Assembly: GCA_945893365.1 (NCBI GenBank)
Contig: CAMDED010000071.1
Span: 1 to 37,164, forward strand
Direction: 5' to 3'
From: Candidatus Sulfopaludibacter sp. SbA3
GTDB taxonomy: Bacteria > Acidobacteriota > Terriglobia > Bryobacterales > Bryobacteraceae
Length of the DNA: 37,164 nt
This document shows positions 7,497-37,164 of the stretch, one piece after another. Position numbers and translations under genes: made by a program. Position 1 is the first letter of the stretch. Each line of letters starts with the position of its first letter. The notes under the pieces were generated by a model. It was not told the origin of the DNA. It made no database searches and was given only the letters and a program-made list of their open reading frames with translations.

Positions 7497-7531
7497 ACCC
7501 GGCGCCTCGCTTTTGGCGTCTATATCTTTAG

Positions 7532-7552
7532 AAGGCGGTCGCTGTTCGCCTT
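7532..7552 (+). promoter_or_regulatory. Small hairpin in the ftsH leader
   Basis: AAGGCG (7532-7537) and CGCCTT (7547-7552) can pair around a nine-base loop. This is just after the end of tilS and 12 bases before the ftsH ribosome binding site. It could be a weak terminator or a leader structure; no T-run follows. Confidence 0.25.
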
Positions 7553-7572
7553 TTCATCGAATCGGAGGTTGC

Positions 7573-9488
<1,916 letters not shown>

Positions 9489-9492
<4 letters not shown>

Positions 9493-17351: not shown

Positions 17352-19535
17352 ATGAGCGCGTCTCTCGATCCCCTGGAAAATACGCAGGATATTATCTATA
17401 GTCACGATTTTGCCGGGAAGATCACGCAATTCAACCGGGTGGCGCTCGAACTATGCGGCTACACTAGGCAGGAAGCCTTGCGGCGCAATATCAGAGACGT
17501 GATCGCGGAAGAATACCGCGACGCGGCGGTACGGATGATGTATCGCAAGCTCGGCGGTGAGACCGTGCCGCCCTACGAGCTAGGCATTATCGCGAAGGAT
17601 GGAAATACCATAACCGTCGAGGTGAACAGCAAGCTTCTGTTTGACGGCGGAAAACCCGTGGGAGTGCTCGGCGTCGCGCGCGATATCACGGAACGCAAGC
17701 GTGCGGAAAAGGCTCTGCGGGAAAGTGAAGCCAAGTTCCGCGCGGTCGCCGAAACCGCGCTATGCGCGATCTATATCGCTCGCGGCTCGAAGCTTCTTTA
17801 CGTGAATCCGGCGGCCGTCTCCGCTTATGGAGGCTCCCTGGAAGAAGTGCTCGCGATGGACGCGTTCGACCTGGTCGCGCCCGATTTCCGTCATCAGCCG
17901 GCGCCTAACGCCCAGGCGCGCGAGACGGGCCAGGCTCCTTCGCGGTTCGAAACGATTACCCTCACGAAAAACGGCGAGATCCGGTGGCAGGACGTCTCCG
18001 TCCGCACAATTGAATTCGAGGGCCAGCCGGCGTCCTTGAGCACAGCCTTCGACATCACGGAGCGCAAGCGTTCCGAACATGCGCTCGAGGAGAGCGAGGC
18101 CAAGTTTCGCGCGGTCGCCGAAATGGCCGTGTGCGCGATCTGCATCTCTCGCGGTCCAAAACTTCTGTACGTCAATCCCGCCGCGGTTGCCGGCTACGGA
18201 GGCACGCTTGACGAGATGCTGTCGATGAACTCGCTCGACACCGTGGCGCCGGACCATCGCGAGCTGGCCAGGGAGTATGCTCGGGCGCGCGTCGAAGGCG
18301 AAGGACCTTTACGTTACGATCTCAAGACGATCACAAAGAGCGGCGAGATCCGTTGGCACGACATCTCCGCCCAGCGAATCGAGTACCAGGGCGAGCCCGC
18401 CGTACTCACAACCGCGTTCGATATCACGGAGCAGAAGCGGGCGCATTCGGCCCTCAGGGAATCCGAAGCGCGTTATCGCAGCCTCTTCGAGAACGTCCCG
18501 GACGGCGTGTTCCGGATTACGCGCGATGGGAAAATCCTGGCCGCGAATCCCGCGCTGGTTGAAATGCTCGGCTACGATTCCGAAGAGCAACTCCAGGGCG
18601 TGGATATCCCCTCGGCTCTGTGCACGAATCCGGAAGAGCGGCGGGCGAATTTTAAGAAGCTTGAGTCCGGCGCGCCGTTGCGGAACTTCGAACACCGCGT
18701 CCGCCGCCGCGACGGGCGTGAAATCGTCGTGCTCCAGAACACGCGCGGCCTGCTCGACGAAACCGGCGCAGTCGTTTGCTTTGAAGGCACCCTCACTGAT
18801 ATCACCGACAGAAAACTCCTGGAGGACAAACTCCGCGATGCCCAGAAAATGGAAGCCGTCGGCCGGCTGGCGGGAGGCATCGCTCACGATTTCAATAATC
18901 TGCTCACGGTGATCTCGGGATATTCCGGGCTGGTCAAGAGCCGGCTTGGGGAGAGTGACCTCTCCTATCGGCACATCCTCGAAATTGAAAACGCGGCGAC
19001 GCGCGCCACCTTGCTGGTAAGGCAATTGCTCGCGTTTAGCCGCAGGCAAATCCTGCAGCCCGTCTCGCTCGACCTGAACGCTCTGATTAAAGCGATGGAG
19101 GCCATGTTGCAGCGGCTGATTGGAGAGCGGATACTCCTCACCGTCAGCTATGGGACGCCGCTCGGAAAAATCCGCGCCGACGCCTCCCAGATCCAGCAGA
19201 TCGTAACGAACCTGGCCGTAAACGCGCGCGATGCCATGCCCGATGGCGGGGAACTGGCGATCTCAACGCAGCTCATCGCCGGGCCGGACCGGACGAAGGA
19301 AGTGCTCCTCCGCGTCTCCGACACCGGGACGGGAATGGACGAGACGACGAGAGCCCACGTCTTCGAACCTTTTTTCACCACGAAAGATGTGGGGAAGGGC
19401 ACGGGTCTCGGACTCTCCACGGTTCATGGAATCGTCGAGCAGAGCGGCGGCAGGATCGCCGTCGACAGCGAGCTCGGGCGGGGCACAGCCGTTTCCATCT
19501 GGCTACCCTGCGATGAAAGTCGCAACGCGACATAG
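17352..19535 (+). CDS. Cytoplasmic multi-PAS sensor histidine kinase
   Basis: Four PAS domains precede a kinase core: PAS1 about 1-125, PAS2 about 126-248, PAS3 about 249-371, PAS4 about 372-495. Each ends in a DITERKR- or DITDRK-type linker. PAS2 and PAS3 are a clear internal duplication with an exact 123-residue offset (both contain LLYVNPAAV). The phospho-accepting His512 lies in GGIAHDFNNLL. The ATPase domain has NLAVNARDAMPDGGEL, DTGTGMD, FEPFFTTK and GKGTGLGLSTVHGIVEQSGG. No membrane helix or receiver domain is present, so it senses an internal signal and must use a separate response regulator, none of which is adjacent. It starts 20 bases after the NagB-like gene and may be co-transcribed with it. 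Confidence 0.93.
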   Translation: MSASLDPLENTQDIIYSHDFAGKITQFNRVALELCGYTRQEALRRNIRDVIAEEYRDAAVRMMYRKLGGETVPPYELGIIAKDGNTITVEVNSKLLFDGGKPVGVLGVARDITERKRAEKALRESEAKFRAVAETALCAIYIARGSKLLYVNPAAVSAYGGSLEEVLAMDAFDLVAPDFRHQPAPNAQARETGQAPSRFETITLTKNGEIRWQDVSVRTIEFEGQPASLSTAFDITERKRSEHALEESEAKFRAVAEMAVCAICISRGPKLLYVNPAAVAGYGGTLDEMLSMNSLDTVAPDHRELAREYARARVEGEGPLRYDLKTITKSGEIRWHDISAQRIEYQGEPAVLTTAFDITEQKRAHSALRESEARYRSLFENVPDGVFRITRDGKILAANPALVEMLGYDSEEQLQGVDIPSALCTNPEERRANFKKLESGAPLRNFEHRVRRRDGREIVVLQNTRGLLDETGAVVCFEGTLTDITDRKLLEDKLRDAQKMEAVGRLAGGIAHDFNNLLTVISGYSGLVKSRLGESDLSYRHILEIENAATRATLLVRQLLAFSRRQILQPVSLDLNALIKAMEAMLQRLIGERILLTVSYGTPLGKIRADASQIQQIVTNLAVNARDAMPDGGELAISTQLIAGPDRTKEVLLRVSDTGTGMDETTRAHVFEPFFTTKDVGKGTGLGLSTVHGIVEQSGGRIAVDSELGRGTAVSIWLPCDESRNAT

Positions 19536-20672: not shown

Positions 20673-22310
20673 TCAGTGGTAAATTCCAGGCGCCTCCTGC
20701 CCGAGCGCCCGGACATATTCGACATATGTTCCCGGATAAATCCGGGGATTGCGGTCCGTGCCGCTCTCGCCTCCGAGTTCGAGCACCTGCGAACCCAGGC
20801 CTCGCAGGAACATGCGGTCGTGCGACACGAAGATCATAGTGCCCGTAAAATCCTTGAGCGCATCGACAAGCATTTCCTTCGTCGCCAGGTCGAGGTGATT
20901 GGTAGGCTCGTCAAGCACCAGAAAGTTCGGCGGGTTGTACAGCATCCGCGCCATCGCAAGCCGGGATTTCTCGCCTCCCGAGAGCGCGCGGATCTTCTTG
21001 TCCACGTCGTCGCCCGAGAACTGGAACGCCCCGGCAAGGGTGCGAAGCGAGCCGAGGCCGTCCTGGGGGAAGTCCTGCTGGAGCTGTTCGACGACCGTCA
21101 GATTCGGGTCGAGTACGTCGAGCGATTGCTGCGCAAAGTATCCCATGTTCAAGCTCGCGCCCAGCCGCACGGTTCCCGAATCGGGCGCGCTCGCTCCCGC
21201 GATCATCTTGAGCAGGGTGGTCTTGCCGGCGCCGTTCCTCCCCATCACGGCCCAGCGCTCGCCGCGGCGGATGGTGAAGCTGAATCCGTCGTAGATCACG
21301 CGGGAACCGTACCGCTTGTGCAGATCCTCGATCACCGCCACCTGATCGCCCGAGCGCGGAGGGACGCGAAAATCGAACTTCACCACCTTGCGCGTCTTCG
21401 GCAGCTCGATCTTATCGATCTTGTCGAGGGCCTTGATGCGGCTCTGCACCTGAGCCGCTTTCGCCGCGTGCGTCTTGAAGCGCTCGATAAAGCGCTGCTC
21501 CTTGGCCAGCATGGACTGCTGGCGGGCGAAAGCCGCCTGCTGGTTGGTCTCGCGGATGGCGCGCTCGCGCTCGTAGAAATCGTAGTCGCCCGAATAAGCG
21601 ACGATTTCACCGGCGTCGATCTCGGCGATTTTCGAGACGACGCGGTTCATGAATTCGCGGTCGTGCGATGTCATGAGGAGGGCGCCCGGGAACGACTTCA
21701 GAAACTCCTCCAGCCAGATGATCGATTCGATGTCGAGATGGTTGGTCGGTTCGTCCATCAACAGCACATCGGGCCGGCCAAGCAGGACGCGAGCGAGCGC
21801 GACGCGCATCTTCCAGCCGCCGGACAGATCCCCCACATCGCCATCGATCCGGTCGTCCTCGAAGCCGAGGCCGTGAAGCACCTCGCGAGCCTGCGCTTCG
21901 AGCGAATAGCCGCCCAGATGCTCGTACTCTTCCTGCACTTCGCCGAAGCGCGCGAGGATACGGTCCATATCGCGAGCCCGCGCGGGATCCTCCATGGCCC
22001 GATGAAGGCCCTCCAATTCGTGGTGCAGATCGCCCGCCCGGCCGCTGCCGGCGATGGCCTCGTCAAGGACGGACCGGCCCTGCATTTCCTCAACGTCCTG
22101 ACGGAAGTAACCGATGGTCAGCTTCTTCGGAACCGAGACCTCGCCCTCGTCCGGCGATTCCTCGCCGACGATCATGCGGAAAAGCGTAGTCTTGCCAGCG
22201 CCGTTAGGACCCACCAGGCCGACCTTTTCACCGGGGTTCAACTGAAAGGAAGCGTCGACAAAGACCAACTGTTTCCCATACTGCTTGTGGATACTTGAGA
22301 AAGAAATCAT
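20673..22310 (-). CDS. ABC-F family ATPase (ribosome-associated type)
   Basis: Two tandem ATPase domains are present without membrane segments. The first has GPNGAGKTTLF, LSGGWKMRVALARVLL and DEPTNHLD; the second has GRNGAGKTTLLKM, LSGGEKSRLAMARML and DEPTNHLD. The linker after domain 1 contains a charged coiled coil (about 235-300, including RERAIRETNQQAAFARQQ), the P-site tRNA interaction motif of ABC-F factors. These proteins bind the ribosomal E site and relieve stalled translation. ATG 22310 is preferred (545 residues): it directly precedes the usual ISFSSIHKQYGKQLVF start, and a TAGTGT lies five bases upstream. Whether it belongs to the Uup, EttA or YdiF subgroup cannot be fixed by reading. 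Confidence 0.93.
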   Translation of the reverse strand: MISFSSIHKQYGKQLVFVDASFQLNPGEKVGLVGPNGAGKTTLFRMIVGEESPDEGEVSVPKKLTIGYFRQDVEEMQGRSVLDEAIAGSGRAGDLHHELEGLHRAMEDPARARDMDRILARFGEVQEEYEHLGGYSLEAQAREVLHGLGFEDDRIDGDVGDLSGGWKMRVALARVLLGRPDVLLMDEPTNHLDIESIIWLEEFLKSFPGALLMTSHDREFMNRVVSKIAEIDAGEIVAYSGDYDFYERERAIRETNQQAAFARQQSMLAKEQRFIERFKTHAAKAAQVQSRIKALDKIDKIELPKTRKVVKFDFRVPPRSGDQVAVIEDLHKRYGSRVIYDGFSFTIRRGERWAVMGRNGAGKTTLLKMIAGASAPDSGTVRLGASLNMGYFAQQSLDVLDPNLTVVEQLQQDFPQDGLGSLRTLAGAFQFSGDDVDKKIRALSGGEKSRLAMARMLYNPPNFLVLDEPTNHLDLATKEMLVDALKDFTGTMIFVSHDRMFLRGLGSQVLELGGESGTDRNPRIYPGTYVEYVRALGQEAPGIYH

Positions 22311-22315
22311 CCGAA

Positions 22316-22321
22316 ACACTA
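22316..22321 (-). promoter_or_regulatory. Candidate -10 element (TAGTGT) for the ABC-F gene
   Basis: TAGTGT on the minus strand ends five bases before the ATG at 22310; no Shine-Dalgarno sequence is visible. Confidence 0.35.
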
Positions 22322-26981: not shown

Positions 26982-28403
26982 CTAAGCTTTCTTGTTCGCC
27001 GCCGCCGTCTTGCCCATCTTGTCGATCTCGCTGAAGTACACGCGGCGGCCTTCGTCCATGGCGAGATTGGAAAGAATTACGGCCGTCGAATCGGCCAACC
27101 CGATCTCGAGGTCCGCTTTCGGCCGCACCCCGGAGCGCACGGATTCGAGGAAACTTTCGAGCTCGATATCGACGGGATTGCGGTCCTCTTCGGGAACCAT
27201 TACGCCTTTCGAGTACAGCCAGCGGCGCGCGAATTTCATTTCCTTGTCGAGGAACGATTCGTTGCCCGAGATCTGGTCGCGATCGAACAGAATAGGCAGC
27301 CCTCTCTGGCCCTTTCCGGTGCCGAGGAGCGAAGCGTTGGCGATTACAGCCTCCTTTTTTCCGCCGGCGGGAGTGACCGAAGGGGGGATCGGCTCCCGAT
27401 ACCACATTCCCAGCGCCGGCTCGTTGTCCGTTCCCACCGTGATCTCGATCGTGGCTTTGGTGCCCATGATGCGCTCGCCGAATTGCGTACGAGAGGCGCC
27501 GAATAGCGGGAGATGCTCGTTGGTGCTGATCGAGCTGTAGACCAGTTTCTGCCCTTTCGGATACTTGTAGATGAGCTGGATATTGTCGTAGACGTCACGG
27601 CCGTCGCGGATGTAGTCGTTGCCGCCCACGCCCACGACGAATTCGGGCGAAGCGCCGAACATCCAGTCCGCCACGTCGATCTGGTGCGATGCAAGTTCCG
27701 CGGTCAGGCCGCCGGAGTATTCGCGGTAGAGTCTCCAATTCGCCATGCGTTGACGCTGTGGATCGGGGTCCGGTTTGATTTTCCAAGCCCCGTTCACGGT
27801 GCGATGCCACTGCGCATGAACATGCGTCACGTCGCCCAGCATCCCCTTGTCGATCATCTGTTTCGCAGTCTGATAAAACTTGCTGTAACGCCGCTGCAAT
27901 CCCACCTGAAGGATCTGCTTCGGGCGGTCGTAGGAAAGCGCGCGCAGCGCATGCACTTCCTCGGGCTTGAAAACAAGGCTTTTCTCGCAGAAAACGTGTT
28001 TACCCGCGAGCAACGCATCGCGAGTGACACGGAAATGCTCGAACAGAGGCGTCGCGATGAGAACGCAATCGAGTTCTTTGCGGCCTAGCATCTCACGATA
28101 GTCCTTGTACTGCTCCGGCCTTGTTCCCGCGACATCCGCGCCTTTCTTCAGGTTCGGCTCGTAGATGTCGCAGACGGCGACGCAACGCCCGAGGTCGTTC
28201 GTATTTTTCAGATGTGTCAGGAGGTACTGACCGCGGCTGCCGGTACCGATGAAGCCGTACTGAACCTGGTTGGCGGACGTAACGCGCTGGAACGCGGGGG
28301 CGCGGTTTGGGGCGGCAGCCACCGCCACGGCGGCGACCGTCGTGAAGGTCCGGCGCGTTAGGTCTTTGACTTGTGTTTTTTCAGCAGCGTTGCCGTCGGC
28401 CAT
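26982..28403 (-). CDS. Tat-exported Gfo/Idh/MocA-family oxidoreductase
   Basis: A twin-arginine signal (LTRRTFTTVAAVAVAAAP) leads the protein. The Rossmann domain follows (QYGFIGTGSRGQYL, VAVCDIYEP), then the family segment GKHVFCEKSLVF, where Lys is the conserved catalytic-type residue, and a C-terminal alpha/beta substrate domain. The cofactor would be NAD(P)(H). Tat export of such enzymes is a hallmark of Planctomycetota and Acidobacteriota and implies folding with cofactor before export. The length of 473 residues is typical for this subgroup. It lies between the DUF1501 gene (88-base gap) and the epimerase-like gene (no gap). Substrates are likely sugars or cyclitols, but are not determined. 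Confidence 0.88.
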   Translation of the reverse strand: MADGNAAEKTQVKDLTRRTFTTVAAVAVAAAPNRAPAFQRVTSANQVQYGFIGTGSRGQYLLTHLKNTNDLGRCVAVCDIYEPNLKKGADVAGTRPEQYKDYREMLGRKELDCVLIATPLFEHFRVTRDALLAGKHVFCEKSLVFKPEEVHALRALSYDRPKQILQVGLQRRYSKFYQTAKQMIDKGMLGDVTHVHAQWHRTVNGAWKIKPDPDPQRQRMANWRLYREYSGGLTAELASHQIDVADWMFGASPEFVVGVGGNDYIRDGRDVYDNIQLIYKYPKGQKLVYSSISTNEHLPLFGASRTQFGERIMGTKATIEITVGTDNEPALGMWYREPIPPSVTPAGGKKEAVIANASLLGTGKGQRGLPILFDRDQISGNESFLDKEMKFARRWLYSKGVMVPEEDRNPVDIELESFLESVRSGVRPKADLEIGLADSTAVILSNLAMDEGRRVYFSEIDKMGKTAAANKKA

Positions 28404-28432
28404 AAGAACAACCTCGCAAGAATTTCACCATG

Positions 28433-28438
28433 ATTGTA
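28433..28438 (-). promoter_or_regulatory. Candidate -10 element (TACAAT) for the Gfo/Idh gene
   Basis: TACAAT lies on the minus strand in the 88-base gap, 29 bases before the ATG at 28403. A GAGG sequence follows in Shine-Dalgarno position. No clear -35 hexamer is seen. Confidence 0.3.
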
Positions 28439-28491
28439 TCAAATGGCGGCGCGATCCGGCCCGGCAAGCGGGCCCTTACAATAGCCACTGC

Positions 28492-29877
28492 TTACGCGAT
28501 TATCGGCTGGATCACTTCGCCGGCCACGTCGGTCAGGCGGAAGTCGCGGCCGCTGTAGCGGTAAGTAAGCCGTTTGTGGTCAAGGCCCATCAAATGCAGT
28601 ATCGTAGCGTGGAGGTCGTGGGGATGCACGCGATTTTCCACCGCCTTGAAGCCGAAATCGTCGGTCGCGCCGTAGGCCATCCCGCCCTTTATGCCGCCGC
28701 CCGCAAGCAGCGTCGTGTAGCCCGGCACATTGTGATCGCGGCCGTTGCCCACGCGCTCCAAACCGCTGTTCTGAATCATCGGAGTGCGGCCGAACTCGCT
28801 CCCGATGATGACGATCGTATCCTTAAACAGCCCTCGCGCTTTCAGGTCGTCGAGCAGAGCGGCGATGGGGCCGTCGGCCGCTTCCGCCAGTTTTGCGTGG
28901 ACCCGAATATCGTCGTGGCTGTCCCACGGCTGGAAGTTGCCGAAGTAGAGCTGAACCATGCGCACGCCGCGTTCGGCAAGACGCAGGGACATCAGGCATC
29001 CGCGCCCGAAGTCGCTATCTCCGTACCGGGCTCGCGTCGCCTCGCTCTCCTTCGTAAGGTCGAGCACGTCCGGCGCTTCCATCTGCATGCGGAAAGCCAC
29101 TTCCATTGAGGCGATACTCGCCTCCAGCTGCGGTTGATGGCCGATCTGCGAAAGATAGGATTCGTTCAACTTGCCGACAAGGCTCAACTGCCGCTCCTGC
29201 TCCGCGAGCGTCAAATCCTTATTGCGCACGTTGCGAACGAGCTTTTCCGGTTCCCTCTCCGAGTTGCGAATGTAGGCGCCCTGGTAGCTCGAAGGCAGGA
29301 ACGCGGAATCCCAGAGCTGCGGCCCGAGCACGGGATATCCCGGGCACAGCGCCACAAAGCCGGGCAGATTCTGATTCTCGGTTCCAAGCCCATAGGTGAG
29401 CCAGGAACCCATCGAGGGGCGTCCCGCGAGGCCATGGCCGCTATTCATCAGCAGCAGCGAAGGCCCGTGGTTACCGTTGTCGGAATACATGGAGCGGATG
29501 ACGCAAAGGTCGTCGATACGCGCGCCAAGCTGTGGGAAAATTTCGCTGACTTCAAGACCGCTTTGGCCGCGCTTCCTGAACTCGAAGGGAGAACGCATGA
29601 GACTCCCCGAGGCGCGATCGGTTTTGATCTTCGGACCGGGCATCGGCTCGCCATGGTGCTTGGCCAGCATCGGCTTCGGGTCGAACGTATCCACCTGCGA
29701 CATTCCGCCATTGAGGAAAATGAAGATCACGCGCTTCGCCTTCGGCGTGAAGTGGGGAGCTTTGACGGCAAGAGCTCCGGATGCCGTCTCGGTTTTCGAA
29801 GCGGCCTGCAGCAGGCTCGACAGTCCGGCCATGCCGAAACCGGCGCCCGCGGTCCGCAAGAGTTCGCGTCTATTCAT
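28492..29877 (-). CDS. DUF1501-domain exported protein
   Basis: The 461-residue protein starts with a twin-arginine signal (NRRELLRTAGAGFGMAGLSS). It then shows the DUF1501 pattern: KRVIFIFLNGGMSQVDTFDP, MYSDNGNHGPS and GSEFGRTPMI near the C-terminal third, with DHNVPGYT after it. The family is related to the alkaline-phosphatase/sulfatase superfamily, but its reaction is unproven. It nearly always sits next to a PSD1/cytochrome-domain protein, as here (24 bases downstream of that gene). GGAGG seven bases before the ATG supports the start. The pair probably acts together in the periplasm on polysaccharide or small-molecule catabolism. Confidence 0.93.
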   Translation of the reverse strand: MNRRELLRTAGAGFGMAGLSSLLQAASKTETASGALAVKAPHFTPKAKRVIFIFLNGGMSQVDTFDPKPMLAKHHGEPMPGPKIKTDRASGSLMRSPFEFRKRGQSGLEVSEIFPQLGARIDDLCVIRSMYSDNGNHGPSLLLMNSGHGLAGRPSMGSWLTYGLGTENQNLPGFVALCPGYPVLGPQLWDSAFLPSSYQGAYIRNSEREPEKLVRNVRNKDLTLAEQERQLSLVGKLNESYLSQIGHQPQLEASIASMEVAFRMQMEAPDVLDLTKESEATRARYGDSDFGRGCLMSLRLAERGVRMVQLYFGNFQPWDSHDDIRVHAKLAEAADGPIAALLDDLKARGLFKDTIVIIGSEFGRTPMIQNSGLERVGNGRDHNVPGYTTLLAGGGIKGGMAYGATDDFGFKAVENRVHPHDLHATILHLMGLDHKRLTYRYSGRDFRLTDVAGEVIQPIIA

Positions 29878-29901
29878 TTAGTGCCTCCAACCAGACATAA
29901 G

Positions 29902-32586
29902 CTAGTTTACCGAACTGAATTCGCTCGAGCTGAGCAGCGCCTGCGCGTACTGCGGCCAGGATCCGCCGCTTTTCTGAAGAAACTCCAGACCGATCGTCAC
30001 CTCGGAATCAAGCGGATCGCGTGAGAAAAGCAGGCGGTACGCTTCGCGGATGCCCGCCTTGTCGTCACCCCGTAATCGCTCCGCCGTCATCTTTTCGGCC
30101 AACATCCGCGACTGCTGCGCGACGAAGCTGCTGTTCAGGAAGAAGAGTCTCTGCATGGGCCCTACCGTTACCATACGCTGCTCGCTCGTATTGTTCGGAT
30201 TCGGAAAGTCGAAAAGAGCAAGGGTTTCGTCGGGATTGGTTCGGCTCACCAAACCGTAGACGGAGCGGCGTCGATTTTTGTCGTCGAAGGGAACCGGTTC
30301 GCCGCCCACCGTGCGGTCGAGCGTACCCGCCACGGCAAGCAGCGAGTCTCGCAGGGCTTCGGCGTCCAGCCGGGGACGCAGGTTCGCGCGCCACAGGTAG
30401 CGATTTGCCGCATCCACGGCGTAGTTCTTTTCGGAATGCCGGGTACTCAGGCCATAGGTCGAAGACAGCATGATCTCGCGGTGCAGGGCCTTCACCGACC
30501 ACCCGCTTTCGATGAATCGCGCCGACAGATAGTCGAGTAACTCCGGATGGGTCGGCCGGTCGCCAATCAGGCCGAAATTCGCCGTCGTTCGGACGATTCC
30601 CTCGCCAAAATGAAGCTGCCAGACACGGTTTACCATGACGCGCGCGGTGAGCGGATTGTCAGGGCTGGCGATAGCCTCGGCCAGTTCGAGGCGGCCGCTT
30701 CCTTTGGTGAAAGGCGCGGGCTCGCCGGGAGAAAGAATCGCCAGAAACCGCCGGGGCGCTTCCTCACCGAGGTTGGCAGGCTCACCGCGGATCTCCACTT
30801 TCCCATTGGCGGGTTTGGCGGAATCGCGCACGGCATGCAGGAAGGGATACTGCTTCGGTAGCGATTTCTGTAAACGGTCCTGATCCGCGCGAAGAGCGGC
30901 AAGATGCTCCTGCAGCAGCGGAGGGAGGAACCGGTCGATTTGCTTCGCTCCGTGATGGTAGACGCCGCCTTTGAAATCGACGAAGTCCTTCTTGTACGGG
31001 TCGGACGCAAGGTCGCGCCAGAGGTAATACTTGACGATTTCGAGCGATTCGAGATTTGTGTACTGGCGGGTACGCTCGTCGCGAACGCCCTTCGCCCCAC
31101 CCATGGCGACATAGTTACGATCGTCCATGCCCTTCTTTTCCGCGTTCATCGCCAGCACAAACGTCTGGAAGTCCTCCGCCGTTTTCCGGACTTGATCCAT
31201 CGGAACGGTCTCGCCTCGCGCCCGCCTCTCCATCAGATCCAACCAGGGCTTCAGGAACGGATGATCCTTCCGCGGGTCCTTGAGATAGCTTTGCCAACGT
31301 TGAAGAGTCTCGGCGTCAAGGCCTGATTTATCGGCGGGATCACCGTTCCACGCCGCGAGAAGGTAACTCGCCGTTTTCGTGGCCAGCACATCGCTCACCT
31401 CGTCGCCGTGCTTCTTGACGAAGTCCTCGATCTCGAATTTTTTCTCCTCGATTTGCTTCTGAATGGCCTTGTACGCGTTCACTTCCGCCTCGGAAGCAAG
31501 GGGGTATTCGCGAACCTCGCTGCTTTTGAAAACGCCGCGAAGCGAGTAATAGTCCTTCGTGGGGATGGGATCGTACTTGTGGTCGTGACACTTCGCGCAG
31601 CCCACCGTCAGACCGAGAAATACGCGCGTCGAAACGTCTACCTGATCGTCGGCGCCATGTCCGAGAGCGTGGAATCCGAGTGCGGCTAAGTGTTTCGGGA
31701 CTTGGTTCGGGCCGTCCTTCGGATCCATCAGGTCGGCGGCGATCTGGGCCTTGACGAAGACGTCATAAGGCAAGTCCGCGTTAAACGCGTTGATGACCCA
31801 GTCCCGGTAGCGATAGGCGTTCGCATACGGAGTGTCTTTGCTCGCTCCCAGGTCGCCATCGGAATAGCGGGCCAAGTCAAGCCAGTAGCGTCCCCAACGC
31901 TCGCCGTAATGCGCGGAGGCGAGCAGACGGTCGACAACTTTCGCGAAAGAGCCGGGCGACGGGTCCGCGAGGAAGGCATCCACTTCTTCAGGCGCGGGCG
32001 GCAGTCCGGTCAGGTCGAACGTCGCGCGGCGAAGCAGATCCCGCTTTTCCGCCGGGCCGACGGGTGAAAGATCCCGCTGTTCGAGAGCCGCAAGAACGAA
32101 ACGGTCGATGGTTGATTTCGGCCACGCTACGTTCTTGACCGCCGGAGGAGGCTGTTTCTTTACGGGCTGAAACGCCCAGAACGCGCGCTGTTCCGGGCGT
32201 ATGGTGTAGACGCTTGCGTCCACCGGAACCGCCGGCTCAGGTGCAACGGGCCACTCCGCACCCGACTTGATCCACGCCTTCAGACCGGCCACTTCCGTGG
32301 GTTCGAGCGGCCCTTGCGGCGGCATCTTGAATTTCTCGTGGACGCGCAACACCGCCTGCATCAGCAGACTTTTCTCCGGATCTCCGGGCACGATAGCCGG
32401 ACCCGAGTTGCCGCCTTTGAGGAGGCCTTCACGGGAATCGAGTTGAAGGCCACCGAGCCGTGAGCCGGTATGGCAGGAATAGCAATTCTTCGCAAGCACG
32501 GGGCGCACGCGCGTTTCAAAAAAATCCGCGTCGGCCGCGATAAGCAGTCCCGAAGCGCACGCCGCAAGCGTAATTTGGCGCCACAT
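29902..32586 (-). CDS. Planctomycete-type cytochrome / DUF1549 / DUF1553 (PSD1) protein
   Basis: This exported 894-residue protein has a signal peptide (QITLAACASGLLIAADA) followed by a PSCyt1 c-type haem domain with CYSCH at 35-39. A second haem site CAKCH lies at 330-334 within the DUF1549 region (CHDHKYDPIPTKDYYSLRG). The DUF1553 (PSD1) region follows, with LTARVMVNRVWQLHFGEG and TNPDETLALFDFPN. The haem groups suggest electron transfer coupled to an oxidation by partner proteins such as the neighbouring DUF1501 protein and the Gfo/Idh enzyme. It is the first gene of the leftward run. A TACACT hexamer lies 12 bases before its ATG and CAGGA two bases before it. Confidence 0.94.
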   Translation of the reverse strand: MWRQITLAACASGLLIAADADFFETRVRPVLAKNCYSCHTGSRLGGLQLDSREGLLKGGNSGPAIVPGDPEKSLLMQAVLRVHEKFKMPPQGPLEPTEVAGLKAWIKSGAEWPVAPEPAVPVDASVYTIRPEQRAFWAFQPVKKQPPPAVKNVAWPKSTIDRFVLAALEQRDLSPVGPAEKRDLLRRATFDLTGLPPAPEEVDAFLADPSPGSFAKVVDRLLASAHYGERWGRYWLDLARYSDGDLGASKDTPYANAYRYRDWVINAFNADLPYDVFVKAQIAADLMDPKDGPNQVPKHLAALGFHALGHGADDQVDVSTRVFLGLTVGCAKCHDHKYDPIPTKDYYSLRGVFKSSEVREYPLASEAEVNAYKAIQKQIEEKKFEIEDFVKKHGDEVSDVLATKTASYLLAAWNGDPADKSGLDAETLQRWQSYLKDPRKDHPFLKPWLDLMERRARGETVPMDQVRKTAEDFQTFVLAMNAEKKGMDDRNYVAMGGAKGVRDERTRQYTNLESLEIVKYYLWRDLASDPYKKDFVDFKGGVYHHGAKQIDRFLPPLLQEHLAALRADQDRLQKSLPKQYPFLHAVRDSAKPANGKVEIRGEPANLGEEAPRRFLAILSPGEPAPFTKGSGRLELAEAIASPDNPLTARVMVNRVWQLHFGEGIVRTTANFGLIGDRPTHPELLDYLSARFIESGWSVKALHREIMLSSTYGLSTRHSEKNYAVDAANRYLWRANLRPRLDAEALRDSLLAVAGTLDRTVGGEPVPFDDKNRRRSVYGLVSRTNPDETLALFDFPNPNNTSEQRMVTVGPMQRLFFLNSSFVAQQSRMLAEKMTAERLRGDDKAGIREAYRLLFSRDPLDSEVTIGLEFLQKSGGSWPQYAQALLSSSEFSSVN

Positions 32587-33342: not shown

Positions 33343-34989
33343 TCATTCCCCCAATAGCGTCTTCAGCCTCGTGTACCCTGCCCGGCTCACGGGCAGACGG
33401 CTGCCATCGCTGAGGATGGCGATCTTACTGTCCTTCGTATAGGGCTCGATCTGCGTTACCCGGTCGAGATTCACGATGTAGGAGCGGTGGATACGGATAA
33501 ATCGCGCCGGGTCCAGGCTTTCCTCCAGGCTCGCGATGGTCTGTTGCTTGAGGTAGTTCTTCCGTTCGCTGCGCAGCGATACGTAGTCGTCCTGCGATTC
33601 GGCGTAGTCGAGCTTTTCGACCGGGATCACGTGTACCTTCGTGCCGTCTTTCACCACCAGCCGCTGCGCGAACTGTTCGGGAGGACGAGCCGCCTGCGCC
33701 AGATCGACTGCGAATGGAGCCGGGCGCGCGGTTCCGCTCTCCTCTTTGTTCAGAGGCGCGTTCACCGCGGCGCGCCTTACTTTCTCCACCGCGGAATGAA
33801 GGCGCTCTTCGCTGAAGGGCTTCAGGAGATAGTCGACGGCGTGCGCATCGAAGGCGCGCAACGCGTACTGGTCATACGCCGTGGCGAAGATCACGTTGAC
33901 CGACGGGTCGATCAGTTGCAGCACTTCAAAGCCGTCGAGTTTCGGCATCTGGATGTCCAGAAACATCAGGTCCGGCTTCAACTCGCCCGCTTTCTTCACG
34001 GCTTCGAATCCGTTCGAGCACTGGCCCACAATTTCGATTTCGGGATGCGACCGCAGCATCTCGGCGAGAACGCCGCGCGCCAGTTCTTCGTCGTCTACAA
34101 TGAGAGCGCGCATTCTCCCCGTTCCGACATGGGGCGCGCCGCATTTCTCTCGCTGAAGATTCTTCAAATCCACCAGCAGATCGCGCGCCGACTGGTACCT
34201 CCGTTCGCGATCCTTCTCCAGACATTTCTCGATGACGCGTTCGAGTTCGAGCGGGGTTGCGCGGGAGAGACGCGAAAGCGGGTCGGGCCTCGCGTTGATG
34301 ATCAACGAGATTGTCTCAACCGTCGTCGCTCCCGAGAACGGCAGCCGTCCCGCCGCCATTTCGTACATCACCGCGCCCAGGCTGAAGATGTCGCTGCGCT
34401 CGTCCACTTCCCGCCCTAGCGCCTGCTCCGGGCTCATGTAGGGGATCGTTCCCAGGAGCATGCCTGGCGTAGTCATGAACTGCGTGTTGGCCGTCGCGAG
34501 ATCCGCGGGCGGCGCGAATTTCGCCAGACCGAAATCGAGCACTTTCACGTGGCCGCGAGCCGTCACCATGATGTTTGCCGGCTTGATATCGCGGTGCGTG
34601 ATCCCTTCGGCATGCGCGGCTTCAAGGGCGCCGGCTACCTGCACGGCAATACGGATCAGCGTAACCGTGTCTACCGGATGTTCCCGCATTTTGCGGTCGA
34701 GCGTCTCGCCATCCACGAACTCCATGGCAAGAAACTGGATGTTCCGCGATTCCACCTCCGCTTCGCCAAGCTCGTGCAGGTAAGCGATATTCGGGTGGCT
34801 CAGGCGCGAGGCTGCCTTGGCCTCCTGCAGGAAACGGCGGGAGGCTTCCCCCGTGGGATCGGGCCGCAGCGCCTTTAGCGCCACTCGGCGCTCGAGTTTC
34901 GTATCCTCGGCCAGGTAGACATCGCCCATGCCACCGCTGCCGAGCGCGGAAATGATGCGGTAGTGGGCAACCGTGCTGCCGGGCTTCAT
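33343..34989 (-). CDS. Ser/Thr protein kinase fused to a LytTR response regulator
   Basis: One 548-residue frame joins three modules. Residues 10 to about 285 are a complete Hanks-type kinase: glycine loop LGSGGMGDVY, Lys39 in VALK, HRDIKPAN with Asp134 and DFGLA at 152-156. Residues 293 to about 410 are a receiver (RALIVDDEELARG, phospho-acceptor Asp345 in FLDIQMPKLDG, and later FATAYDQYALRAF). Residues about 443-548 are a LytTR DNA-binding domain (RFIRIHRSYIVNLDRVTQIE). The receiver Met293 (34113) is preceded by GGGGAGA, so a separate regulator could also be translated. ATG 34989 fits kinase N-termini; GTG 35001, overlapping the histidine kinase stop, is the alternative. It could take phosphate from both the LytS-like kinase and its own kinase domain. 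Confidence 0.93.
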   Translation of the reverse strand: MKPGSTVAHYRIISALGSGGMGDVYLAEDTKLERRVALKALRPDPTGEASRRFLQEAKAASRLSHPNIAYLHELGEAEVESRNIQFLAMEFVDGETLDRKMREHPVDTVTLIRIAVQVAGALEAAHAEGITHRDIKPANIMVTARGHVKVLDFGLAKFAPPADLATANTQFMTTPGMLLGTIPYMSPEQALGREVDERSDIFSLGAVMYEMAAGRLPFSGATTVETISLIINARPDPLSRLSRATPLELERVIEKCLEKDRERRYQSARDLLVDLKNLQREKCGAPHVGTGRMRALIVDDEELARGVLAEMLRSHPEIEIVGQCSNGFEAVKKAGELKPDLMFLDIQMPKLDGFEVLQLIDPSVNVIFATAYDQYALRAFDAHAVDYLLKPFSEERLHSAVEKVRRAAVNAPLNKEESGTARPAPFAVDLAQAARPPEQFAQRLVVKDGTKVHVIPVEKLDYAESQDDYVSLRSERKNYLKQQTIASLEESLDPARFIRIHRSYIVNLDRVTQIEPYTKDSKIAILSDGSRLPVSRAGYTRLKTLLGE

Positions 34990-34997
34990 GCCGCTGT

Positions 34998-36065
34998 TCA
35001 CGATCTTACCTGCCTTTCCGACGGGAGAGTCATTTCCACGCGGTAGCGGTGGGCCGCCCGGCACACGTCGAGCCTGGCGGACGCGCCATATCGCACTTCC
35101 AGCCGCTTCCTGACATTCACAAGACCCAAGCCGTTCTTCGCGGCAGGCGGGGCATCCGGGTCGAATCCGTTCTCGACGACCACCAGCAACTGTCCCTCCC
35201 GCCGGCGCGCCGTGAGGCGGATCCAGCCGTCTTCAAGCGCCGTGGCCACGCCGTGCTTCACGGCGTTCTCAACTAAAGGCTGGAGTAGCAAGGGAGGGAC
35301 CGCGCAAGCTTCACAGCCGTCCTCGATTTCTTCCTCGACGCGCAACCTGGAGCCGAAGCGCACCTGCTCCACACTCAAATACGCCCGGACGAGCGCCAAC
35401 TCCTCGGAGAGCTCTATGCTCTCCTTCTCTCCCAAACCAAGCGTACTGCGAAGGAAATCCGAAAGCAGCACGCACATCCGGCGAGCCTTCGCCGGGTCTA
35501 CCGTGGTGAGGGCGCTGATCGAATTGAGGCTGTTGAACAGGAAGTGCGGATTCACCTGCATCTTCAGCGCCTTCAGTTCCCCGTCGCGCGCCAGCACCTG
35601 GGATTCGAGCGCGCGGCTTTCGGCGTCGCGCGAAGCTTCGACCGCCAGATACACGTAGTGAATCGCCACCGCGACTAGATAGAGGGGCGCGCTCACGCCG
35701 AACAGCAGCGGGAATTGCCGCGCGAATCGCTGTTCGAGCTTGTCCGCCGCCAGCAGTCTTTCCGCGGCCGGCAGGATCTGAGTGGCCACGCCGACAAGCA
35801 GCAGGCTCGCCGCGGCAGCCGCAAGCGAATGAGCGAACAGCACGCTTGCGATATTTCCCGGACGAAGCGGCGTAACGCGGCACATGTACCACGGAGACAG
35901 GCACACCAGCGAATAGACCGCCATAAGCGGCAGGGTTACGGCCAGCCCTTCCGTCCAGGTCAACGTTCCGCCGGCGGCAATAATGCCCGCAATAACCCCG
36001 CCAGGCACGAGCCATGACAGCAGGTAGAGCGCGAGCCTGGCTGGCGACGCAAGAATCGGGTGCAT
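34998..36065 (-). CDS. LytS-type membrane sensor histidine kinase
   Basis: The first 150 or so residues contain about four membrane helices with short loops and no large extracellular sensor, suggesting detection of a membrane or partner signal. The His_kinase block follows: LKMQVNPHFLFNSLNSISAL with the phospho-accepting His, then LLLQPLVENAVKHGV (N box) and KNGLGLVNVRKRLEVRYG (G box), at 355 residues in total. This class phosphorylates LytTR regulators, and the next gene encodes one, fused to a Ser/Thr kinase. The upstream gene is LiaF-like, which in Firmicutes inhibits its kinase, so a LiaF-style control of this kinase is a reasonable inference. Gaps are 8 and 13 bases, indicating one operon. 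Confidence 0.92.
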   Translation of the reverse strand: MHPILASPARLALYLLSWLVPGGVIAGIIAAGGTLTWTEGLAVTLPLMAVYSLVCLSPWYMCRVTPLRPGNIASVLFAHSLAAAAASLLLVGVATQILPAAERLLAADKLEQRFARQFPLLFGVSAPLYLVAVAIHYVYLAVEASRDAESRALESQVLARDGELKALKMQVNPHFLFNSLNSISALTTVDPAKARRMCVLLSDFLRSTLGLGEKESIELSEELALVRAYLSVEQVRFGSRLRVEEEIEDGCEACAVPPLLLQPLVENAVKHGVATALEDGWIRLTARRREGQLLVVVENGFDPDAPPAAKNGLGLVNVRKRLEVRYGASARLDVCRAAHRYRVEMTLPSERQVRS

Positions 36066-36078
36066 GTGAGTGCGCCGC

Positions 36079-36783
36079 TTAGTTTGAAACTTCCACGCCG
36101 CCGAATGCCGCCATCCCCTTGATGATCAGATGTCTCACATTCGCGGCGTCGCTCATGGGCGGCGTCCGGGTCTTGTCCTCGTAGCCTCCGAAGATGGCCA
36201 CGCCGTCCAGCCTCACGCGCCAAGTGTCGGGCACCCGCAACTTTACGCCGCCGAACATCGCATTCGCGGTGAAGACGACCAACGGCTGTGACATGCTGGA
36301 ACCGGTAAGGTCGATCTCATAGCCCCCGAAAACGGCGAGCACTTCGCCCCCCTTGAAGTCCTCCGTAATCACACGCTGTTTGCTGCCGCCGAACACCTGA
36401 AAGCCGTTGACGCAGCAGGTGTCCGAAACGGAGCACCCCGGTCTGCTCTGTGTAGCGTTCCAGAGAAAGTTGACGCCGATCCAAATCAGAATCAGCGGCC
36501 ATAGAGTCCGGAAACCGAAGTGCACATAGCCGAGATTGTTAAGCAGGAAAAGTCCGCCGACGATCACGAGGAAACCGCTCAACGCCCGCCCCTGGGTCCC
36601 CTTTGCGTCGATGAGGTTCGCCGTGCCGGCCGCGATCAAGAGCAGCGGCCAAAAGCTCCACATGTCGCGGGTTTGGATGATCCCCAGGTTTCCCAGCAAG
36701 AGCGCCGCGCCGATGAATAGGATCGTTGCTCCCGCGATAAGGCTGGGCGTCACGGCGCGCTGCGTCTGGTTGTCGTTCTGCAT
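36079..36783 (-). CDS. LiaF-like membrane protein (cell-wall-stress response family)
   Basis: ATG 36783 is chosen because a GGAGG sits five bases upstream; the frame extends further but as unlikely sequence. The 234-residue protein has four membrane helices in the first 110 residues (TLWPLILIWIGVNFLW is the last). A short Cys-bearing linker (PGCSVSDTCC) follows, then a C-terminal domain with repeated FGG motifs (QVFGGSKQ, AVFGGYEIDL, AMFGGVKLRV, AIFGGYEDK, AAFGGVEV). This matches LiaF C-terminal (DUF2154) proteins. LiaF regulates the LiaRS two-component system on envelope stress. Here it leads an operon with a LytS-type kinase and the kinase-regulator fusion, so it is probably the sensor or inhibitor. 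Confidence 0.85.
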   Translation of the reverse strand: MQNDNQTQRAVTPSLIAGATILFIGAALLLGNLGIIQTRDMWSFWPLLLIAAGTANLIDAKGTQGRALSGFLVIVGGLFLLNNLGYVHFGFRTLWPLILIWIGVNFLWNATQSRPGCSVSDTCCVNGFQVFGGSKQRVITEDFKGGEVLAVFGGYEIDLTGSSMSQPLVVFTANAMFGGVKLRVPDTWRVRLDGVAIFGGYEDKTRTPPMSDAANVRHLIIKGMAAFGGVEVSN

Positions 36784-37164
36784 AACTGCCTCCAATGAGA
36801 GACTATCACCCGCGCTCCGGCGAAGCCCGCTCTTTTCGGCGAATGACGCGCGGATACCGGTAAGTGACGTGCCTTCAGCGTTTTCCTGGGGACTCTTCAT
36901 TCCTGGAAGGTATTCAGATTCTCAGGTTAACTCAGGCTTCTCAGGTTTACTCAGGATTCTCAGGCTTCCCAGGTTTACCCAGGATTCTCAGGTTTAGCGG
37001 AGATCCGGTGGGTTCGGGCGGAGCGCCGGGATAAACCGGCATGCAATAAGGAATGAAAGAGTCCGGCAGGAAAGGAGGAGCGAATCCATCCTGACCCCGA
37101 GTCTTGCGGAGCGCATCGTAAGGTGCGGTCCGAAGCGTAGACAGGGGCAGCGACGGGCAGGGTA
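36784..37164. other. Upstream region of the LiaF-like operon, no gene seen
   Basis: No convincing coding frame is present. It holds a TGATAGT (minus strand) a short way before the LiaF-like ribosome binding site, a possible extended -10. The hexamer array at 36921-36992 lies here, as does an AGGAGG-like motif near 37073-37081 with no supported gene behind it before the edge. Confidence 0.5.
36921..36992. repeat. Array of eight CTCAGG/CCCAGG hexamers at helical spacing
   Basis: Hexamers start at 36921, 36931, 36940, 36950, 36959, 36968, 36978 and 36987. Steps are 10, 9, 10, 9, 9, 10 and 9 bases, mean about 9.4, with TTTA or ATT/CTT spacers giving a 19-base super-repeat. Six are CTCAGG and two CCCAGG. 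They lie 138-209 bases upstream of the LiaF-like start. Confidence 0.85.

Follow-up and report, generated by a model that had tools for sequence, protein, structure and literature searches.

A Hanks-type Ser/Thr kinase joined to a receiver-LytTR response regulator beside LiaF-like and LytS-type partners in Candidatus Sulfopaludibacter

The window analysed here, the whole stretch of 37,164 nucleotides of Candidatus Sulfopaludibacter sp. SbA3 (contig CAMDED010000071.1), encodes a protein in which a Hanks-type Ser/Thr kinase, a receiver and a LytTR DNA-binding domain are joined in one polypeptide. This architecture, together with its reading as an accessory kinase on a Lia/Vra-like LytTR regulator, is held with high confidence. 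The fuller proposal, that an accessory Ser/Thr kinase was gained at the N-terminus of an envelope-stress regulator of the LiaF-like/LytS-type/LytTR kind and tunes it, is one for and against which the grounds seem to us equal. Two usually separate signalling systems meet here in one protein, in one family of soil acidobacteria. The clade concerned holds the fused and the unfused regulator with a common operator motif, as well as one genome with a partly deleted kinase, and offers a natural with/without comparison for the effect of attaching a Ser/Thr kinase to a His-Asp switch.

Domain architecture of the fused protein

The gene is a single open frame on the minus strand, with an ATG at 34989 and a stop at 33343-33345, and its parts are the following.

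33343-34989, minus strand: fused gene for the Ser/Thr kinase-receiver-LytTR protein (548 aa, or 552 aa if the start is GTG 35001)
34192-34962, minus strand: Hanks-type Ser/Thr kinase domain, PknB-like, residues 10-266 (Pfam, PDB sequence search, Foldseek)
34117-34137, minus strand: linker, residues 285-291, with pLDDT below 50 at 285-289 and Met293 two codons further on
33784-34104, minus strand: receiver domain, residues 296-402, with the phospho-acceptor Asp345 at 33955-33957
33352-33639, minus strand: LytTR DNA-binding domain, residues 451-546 (Pfam)

All three Pfam matches lie well over their cut-offs: Pkinase (residues 10-266) with 154 bits against 31.7, Response_reg (296-402) with 89.9 against 30.2, and LytTR (451-546) with 85.7 against 22.6. 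The kinase carries the P-loop, the VALK lysine (Lys39), the HRD and DFG aspartates (Asp134 and Asp152) and the SPE motif, and the receiver residues Asp345, Asp299/300, Thr370 and Lys390 are invariant in both alignments made (A1, 21 rows, and A2, 75 rows). The initial annotation had described, from the letters alone, a complete Hanks kinase with a canonical receiver (Asp345) and a LytTR output in one protein, and with the domains over their cut-offs and the catalytic residues in place this description stands. Both His-Asp and Ser/Thr phosphorylation of the fused protein are plausible.

PknB was the top PDB match of the kinase both by sequence and by predicted structure (Foldseek, 6i2p, E 2.7e-24). 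The AlphaFold model, built on the 75-row alignment A2, had a mean pLDDT of 87.4 and was weak at residues 158-179 (activation loop), 285-289 (the linker between kinase and receiver) and 417-422 (a second linker); it predicts the three domains confidently, with a mutual arrangement that is not reliable (pTM 0.56). The match of the fused protein to PknB_PASTA_kin, a full-length model, reached 297 bits against a cut-off of 450, and no PASTA repeats following the kinase were matched in the Pfam and NCBIfam scan. The best NCBIfam match of the REC-LytTR kind was BtsR, with 179.7 bits, under its cut-off of 246.

Translation start

The true start is probably GTG 35001 rather than ATG 34989, since this GTG overlaps the stop codon of the histidine kinase gene as GTGA and lies 20 codons ahead of the P-loop, and since in fused orthologs from beyond the genus the P-loop is preceded by an ATG at a distance of 19 or 20 codons in 13 of 18 cases. 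An internal start at Met293, preceded by a Shine-Dalgarno-like GGGGAGA, had also been suggested as the source of a second, shorter product. This idea was rejected, as the position holds other codons in the fused relatives: CTG in the closest one (85% identical), ATC, ATT, GTT or CTx and once TTG in 17 other fused rows, with isoleucine in the alignment for genomes G089 and G131, so that among fused relatives Met293 occurs only in the genome of the window. Besides, GGGGAGA directly adjoins the ATG, and with no gap it is too close to be likely as a normal Shine-Dalgarno sequence.

Operon partners

Two genes upstream of the fused gene and a predicted operator complete the locus.

34998-36065, minus strand: LytS-type sensor histidine kinase (His_kinase and HATPase_c), 355 aa, the next gene upstream, whose stop overlaps GTG 35001
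36079-36783, minus strand: gene of a LiaF-like membrane protein (LiaF-TM), the longest open frame beginning at 36900
36836-36866, plus strand: predicted LytTR operator, TCGGCGAATG-N11-CCGGTAAGTG, a direct repeat with a 21-nt period, roughly 52 nt ahead of ATG 36783 on its upstream side

The histidine kinase matched His_kinase (PF06580) with 89 bits and HATPase_c with 25.5 bits, slightly under the cut-off of 26.4. The membrane protein matched LiaF-TM (56.8 bits) and LiaI-LiaF-like_TM1 (69.2 bits), each with a cut-off of 27, and LiaF-like_C/Toastrack with 21.8 bits, under the cut-off of 29. Its gene probably starts at ATG 36783, because the longest open frame, from 36900, would contain the predicted operator.

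Gene order was read for all 86 regulator loci of the family sample described below. As judged from these loci, the host system is a conserved operon predicted to encode a LiaF-like membrane protein, a LytS-type histidine kinase and a LytTR regulator. The order LiaF, histidine kinase, kinase-REC-LytTR was found in 17 of the 21 fused cases, placing the Ser/Thr kinase exactly between the histidine kinase and the regulator. In G088 the histidine kinase and LiaF genes are convergent and downstream of the fused gene, in G024 the fused gene is cut at a contig end, and in G089 and G131 no histidine kinase gene was found in the stretch around the fused gene; a genome search gave a near full-length homologue of the histidine kinase in all four. 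At the unfused loci the two partners are mostly just upstream, elsewhere convergent downstream, and at several loci absent from the stretch. The phospho-acceptor motif PHFLFN was present in all 18 histidine kinases of linked fused systems, while the strict N-box pattern was matched by 10 and the G-box pattern by 15 of these 18.

Predicted operator

The usual target of a LytTR regulator is a pair of direct repeats spaced by about 21 nt. Such repeats (10 bases, at most one mismatch, period exactly 21 nt) were found in 31 of 70 regions around the LiaF start, against a mean of 1.2 and a maximum of 2 in shuffled regions, and other periods from 17 to 26 reached at most 5 of the 70. A Gibbs search with the period fixed at 21 gave a motif of approximately TCGGCGAATG-N11-CCGGTGAACG, lying on the other strand than the operon. 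Among all positions on both strands of the window, the site listed above scored best (24.1 bits, the next 17.8), and it was not wholly inside the region on which the motif had been trained.

Among the fused regions, 14 of 17 have a site of at least 18 bits, and among the unfused ones 37 of 53; these counts are scores on the motif's own training sequences, for which the control is the enrichment of the period over shuffled regions. Many of the 16 unfused regions with less than 18 bits have convergent histidine kinase and LiaF genes. In the three fused regions that were missed, the site was cut by the region edge, inside the LiaF frame as first called, and whole scans recovered it with 24.1 bits in the window, 21.6 in G001 and 19.9 in G088. 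One further system, in G110, lies too near a contig end to have entered the Gibbs search and has a mismatch-free site at C88:47-77, among the matches listed. Every one of the 18 fused systems in which LiaF is linked thus has such a site. As the motif is common to fused and unfused systems, the DNA target of the fused protein is most likely still the ancestral one, namely its own operon.

In a wider regulon scan, which covered 17 of the 21 fused genomes, the 31-base pattern with one mismatch allowed was matched 256 times and its reversed control 84 times (5 times each in G119), a signal not strong enough for naming target genes. In more distant operons the 21-nt repeat occurred in 11 of 57 regions (1.1 expected); this enrichment is only suggestive, as the 18-nt and 24-nt periods were also raised, to 7 and 5 regions.

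Occurrence of fused and unfused regulators

When the REC-LytTR part alone was used as a query (E <= 1e-78) on 200 sampled genomes of the family, a match was found in 86, one per genome. The kinase is fused in 21 of them (20 at full length, and G024, cut at a contig end), and the other 65 are unfused. The earlier proposal of a former gene boundary ahead of the receiver holds in substance, the regulator being a stand-alone REC-LytTR protein in these 65 orthologs. One unfused ortholog (L244, G010:C1:6102055-6102780) has an in-frame TAG near its start; it may be a pseudogene, begin further downstream or contain an error of sequencing.

Bacteroidota, Ignavibacteria, Duganella/Massilia and other groups also have this three-gene operon, there lacking the kinase. 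Among 80 of 581 matching loci, 64 hold the regulator, and only L050, probably the same record as G001, has a kinase in frame. Ten genomes of a class sample of 399 matched at E <= 1e-108, all in the family of the window. In a phylum sample of 396 genomes there were three matches at E <= 1e-100, namely the window, G765, in which only the kinase part matched, and G567; the class and phylum thresholds would miss fusions to unrelated kinases. A check of regulator frames longer than 500 aa gave 28 rows, one of them the window and one the fused gene of G567; the other 26, in a search of further families of the phylum, measure 502 to 670 aa, and in the 19 of them that were fetched no kinase is joined to the regulator. 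At 17 of 20 loci (L321-L340) the regulator frame is open for at least 250 codons upstream and runs across the histidine kinase gene in a different phase, and open-frame length alone would therefore suggest false fusions.

Evolutionary history

In the tree of regulators (85 rows, G010 being dropped for its in-frame TAG) all fused rows fall in one 49-row sector (support 92/88) together with 28 unfused rows. Seven changes between the two forms are needed, four of them forced by well-supported branches, and a single clade of fused regulators was rejected (AU test, p 0.0008). The kinase tree was built from 20 fused and 37 unfused kinases, L048 (stop) and G024 (short) being dropped; it agrees with a single clade of fused kinases (p 0.54), and this clade appears at 80/77 once one row is added. 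The trees suggest, as the simplest reading, a single gain of the kinase at the root of the sector, followed by about six losses as we count them on the regulator tree; transfer of the fused gene may be an alternative history. The kinase was apparently lost repeatedly while the regulator stayed. It seems to be an add-on that is not essential to the regulator, and with about six lineages that seem to have lost it, its benefit is probably not general. A loss in progress would fit G116: near helix alphaG its kinase is short of about 21 residues, and its regulator is sister to that of unfused G030 (100/94).

The match in G567, which belongs to another class, is full length with 51% identity, and its domains were confirmed by a scan. 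The LiaF and histidine kinase genes lie divergent beside the fusion. Placing the kinase of G567 in one clade with the main fused kinases was rejected (p 0.0067), a result qualified by the long branch of G567, and this is therefore probably a second, independent fusion. The same genome also holds an unfused LiaF-histidine kinase-regulator operon elsewhere, L339 (G567:C64) and L309 (G567:C47) representing the unfused operon and the kinase-fused copy within one genome.

Kinase conservation and unfused relatives

The P-loop, the VAIK lysine, the catalytic aspartate, DFG and SPE are kept in all 20 complete fused kinases, and 17 of them have every motif intact; G089 and G131 have HCD in place of HRD, and G116 carries the deletion described above. 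In nine pairs dN/dS was 0.03-0.17 for the kinase (dS above 1, saturated, in five) and 0.04-0.10 for the regulator. Intact motifs and low dN/dS indicate a kinase that is predicted to be active and under selection. Thr169 in the activation loop is invariant. Leu32, at least 90% conserved in the fused rows, aligns with Leu33 of PknB, which we take to lie in the kinase dimer face, and titles of PDB entries among the structure matches name PknB L33 mutants.

In each of the nine unfused near kinases inspected by eye, the kinase domain is followed by a hydrophobic stretch that probably spans the membrane. Seven unfused kinases were scanned for what comes next: TPR repeats are present in five and PD40 repeats in one, and in the last, L308 (identity about 59%, included in no tree), PD40 matched under the cut-off. 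As the nearest unfused kinases are followed by this stretch and an outer half, REC-LytTR appears to stand in the place of a membrane-linked half.

Possible role of the attached kinase

The mechanism proposed begins with membrane stress, which the LiaF-like protein and the histidine kinase would sense and pass on by phosphorylating Asp345; the receiver would dimerise, and the pair of LytTR domains would bind the repeat and control its own operon. The same dimerisation would juxtapose two PknB-like kinase domains, which might then autophosphorylate, and the kinase could go on to phosphorylate the regulator itself, in the receiver, the linker or LytTR, tuning the response. Such tuning has a precedent between separate proteins, as the LiaR-like VraR is a target of Stk1 at four threonines and binds DNA less well once phosphorylated there (PMC4601284).

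A comparison of 21 fused with 28 unfused regulators by Fisher tests on 242 columns gave no gained Ser/Thr site specific to the fused regulators after correction. The best gained column was 314, with Ser/Thr in 12 of 21 fused against 2 of 28 unfused regulators (raw p 0.0002). Column 518 alone survived correction, in the opposite direction (9 of 21 against 28 of 28). The simple form of tuning in cis is weakened by the lack of a gained position and by the loss of threonine 518 in 12 of the 21 fused regulators, and this step, taken alone, we hold with marginally more doubt than belief.

The regulator might instead control the kinase, which we entertain tentatively: a signal from the histidine kinase, through phosphorylation of Asp345 and dimerisation of REC-LytTR, would switch on the Ser/Thr kinase, and its main targets would be other proteins, giving a second output in addition to transcription. 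For kinases of the PknB type, dimerisation is regarded as the activating step. The lack of a gained site would suit such an arrangement, as would the place that REC-LytTR holds, that of the hydrophobic stretch and the TPR/PD40 half in near unfused kinases, and the existence of the regulator without a kinase in 65 of 86 orthologs; but REC-LytTR and operator are much alike in fused and unfused systems, and a kinase for unrelated targets need not stay on a DNA-bound protein. Tuning in cis is ranked slightly ahead of control of the kinase by the regulator. A bolder version, in our view rather unlikely, would have the His-Asp phosphorelay directly drive the Ser/Thr kinase, coupling transcription at the operator to a Ser/Thr response elsewhere, in a design that would have arisen at least twice, on related regulators and from different kinases (the main clade and G567).

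That the kinase is a passive or decaying passenger, tolerated in one clade, at most a scaffold and now being lost, is improbable. The apparent losses, about six, and the deletion in G116, nearest to an unfused regulator, would agree with decay, but the dN/dS values of the kinase, motifs intact in 17 of 20 and a second fusion in another class speak against it. An artefact joining two genes in a draft genome of 299 contigs is a practically negligible explanation, since 20 further sampled genomes, one of them with the gene cut where its contig ends, show the same join across ten genus groups and with identities of 55-85%, Pkinase, Response_reg and LytTR are matched in all 21 rows, and the stretch from 34113 to 34160, where by the initial annotation a stop or frameshift would have refuted the fusion, contains neither.

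Comparison with known systems

The system resembles LiaFSR and VraTSR, in which the gene of a LiaF-TM membrane protein accompanies those of a response regulator and its sensor kinase (PMC11237479), and VraR is also a substrate of a Ser/Thr kinase (PMC4601284). LiaI-LiaF-TM/Toastrack proteins are associated with two-component systems, among them vraT of S. aureus and examples from Proteobacteria and Ignavibacteriae, and in Firmicutes there is a link to LytTR; the word 'threonine' is absent from the main text of that paper (PMC11237479). The present system differs in its LytS-type histidine kinase (PF06580) and in its output: LiaR has a receiver with a winged helix-turn-helix (PMC11237479) and VraR is of the NarL type (PMC4601284), unlike the LytTR regulator found here, which is not of the LiaR/VraR type (receiver and helix-turn-helix). 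With this output the system works like LiaFSR but is not LiaFSR. The Ser/Thr kinase is in cis here, whereas it acts in trans on VraR, GraR and DosR (PMC4601284) and on WalR (PMC4478028).

Systems of the LytS/LytTR kind (BtsSR, LytSR, AgrCA) share the REC-LytTR regulator with a His_kinase-type partner and direct repeats with a 21-nt period, the geometry of other LytTR operators, while the N-terminal Hanks kinase and the LiaF-like third component set the present system apart. The kinase has the fold and motifs of PknB, StkP and Stk1, but here it has no PASTA match and is fused to REC-LytTR. A hybrid of histidine kinase and Ser/Thr kinase in Spirulina likewise combines His-Asp and Ser/Thr parts in one polypeptide, with the difference that a histidine kinase is fused there and a DNA-binding response regulator here (PMC1183210).

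No Pkinase-REC-LytTR architecture was found in titles and beginnings of abstracts among the papers listed from the open literature, a scope that leaves subscription journals mostly outside. Many described proteins of this kind had been named as a refutation; within that scope no described ones came up, and undescribed ones are numerous in the family. None of the parts is new by itself; the novelty lies in their covalent joining, in where the kinase sits within the operon and in the way the fusion has come and gone.

Other genes of the window

Genes on the minus strand at 26982-32586, the side adjacent to the fused-gene region, encode a Gfo/Idh/MocA oxidoreductase (26982-28403), a DUF1501 protein (28492-29877) and a PSCyt1/PSCyt2/PSD1 protein (29902-32586). 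The plus strand carries genes for an FtsH-type AAA protease (7513-9492) and for a histidine kinase with several PAS domains (HisKA and HATPase_c, 17352-19535). An ABC-F-like ATPase with two ABC_tran stretches and ABC_tran_Xtn is encoded at 20673-22319 on the minus strand, and within this gene an antisense frame (20676-22298) is also open, probably owing to base composition.
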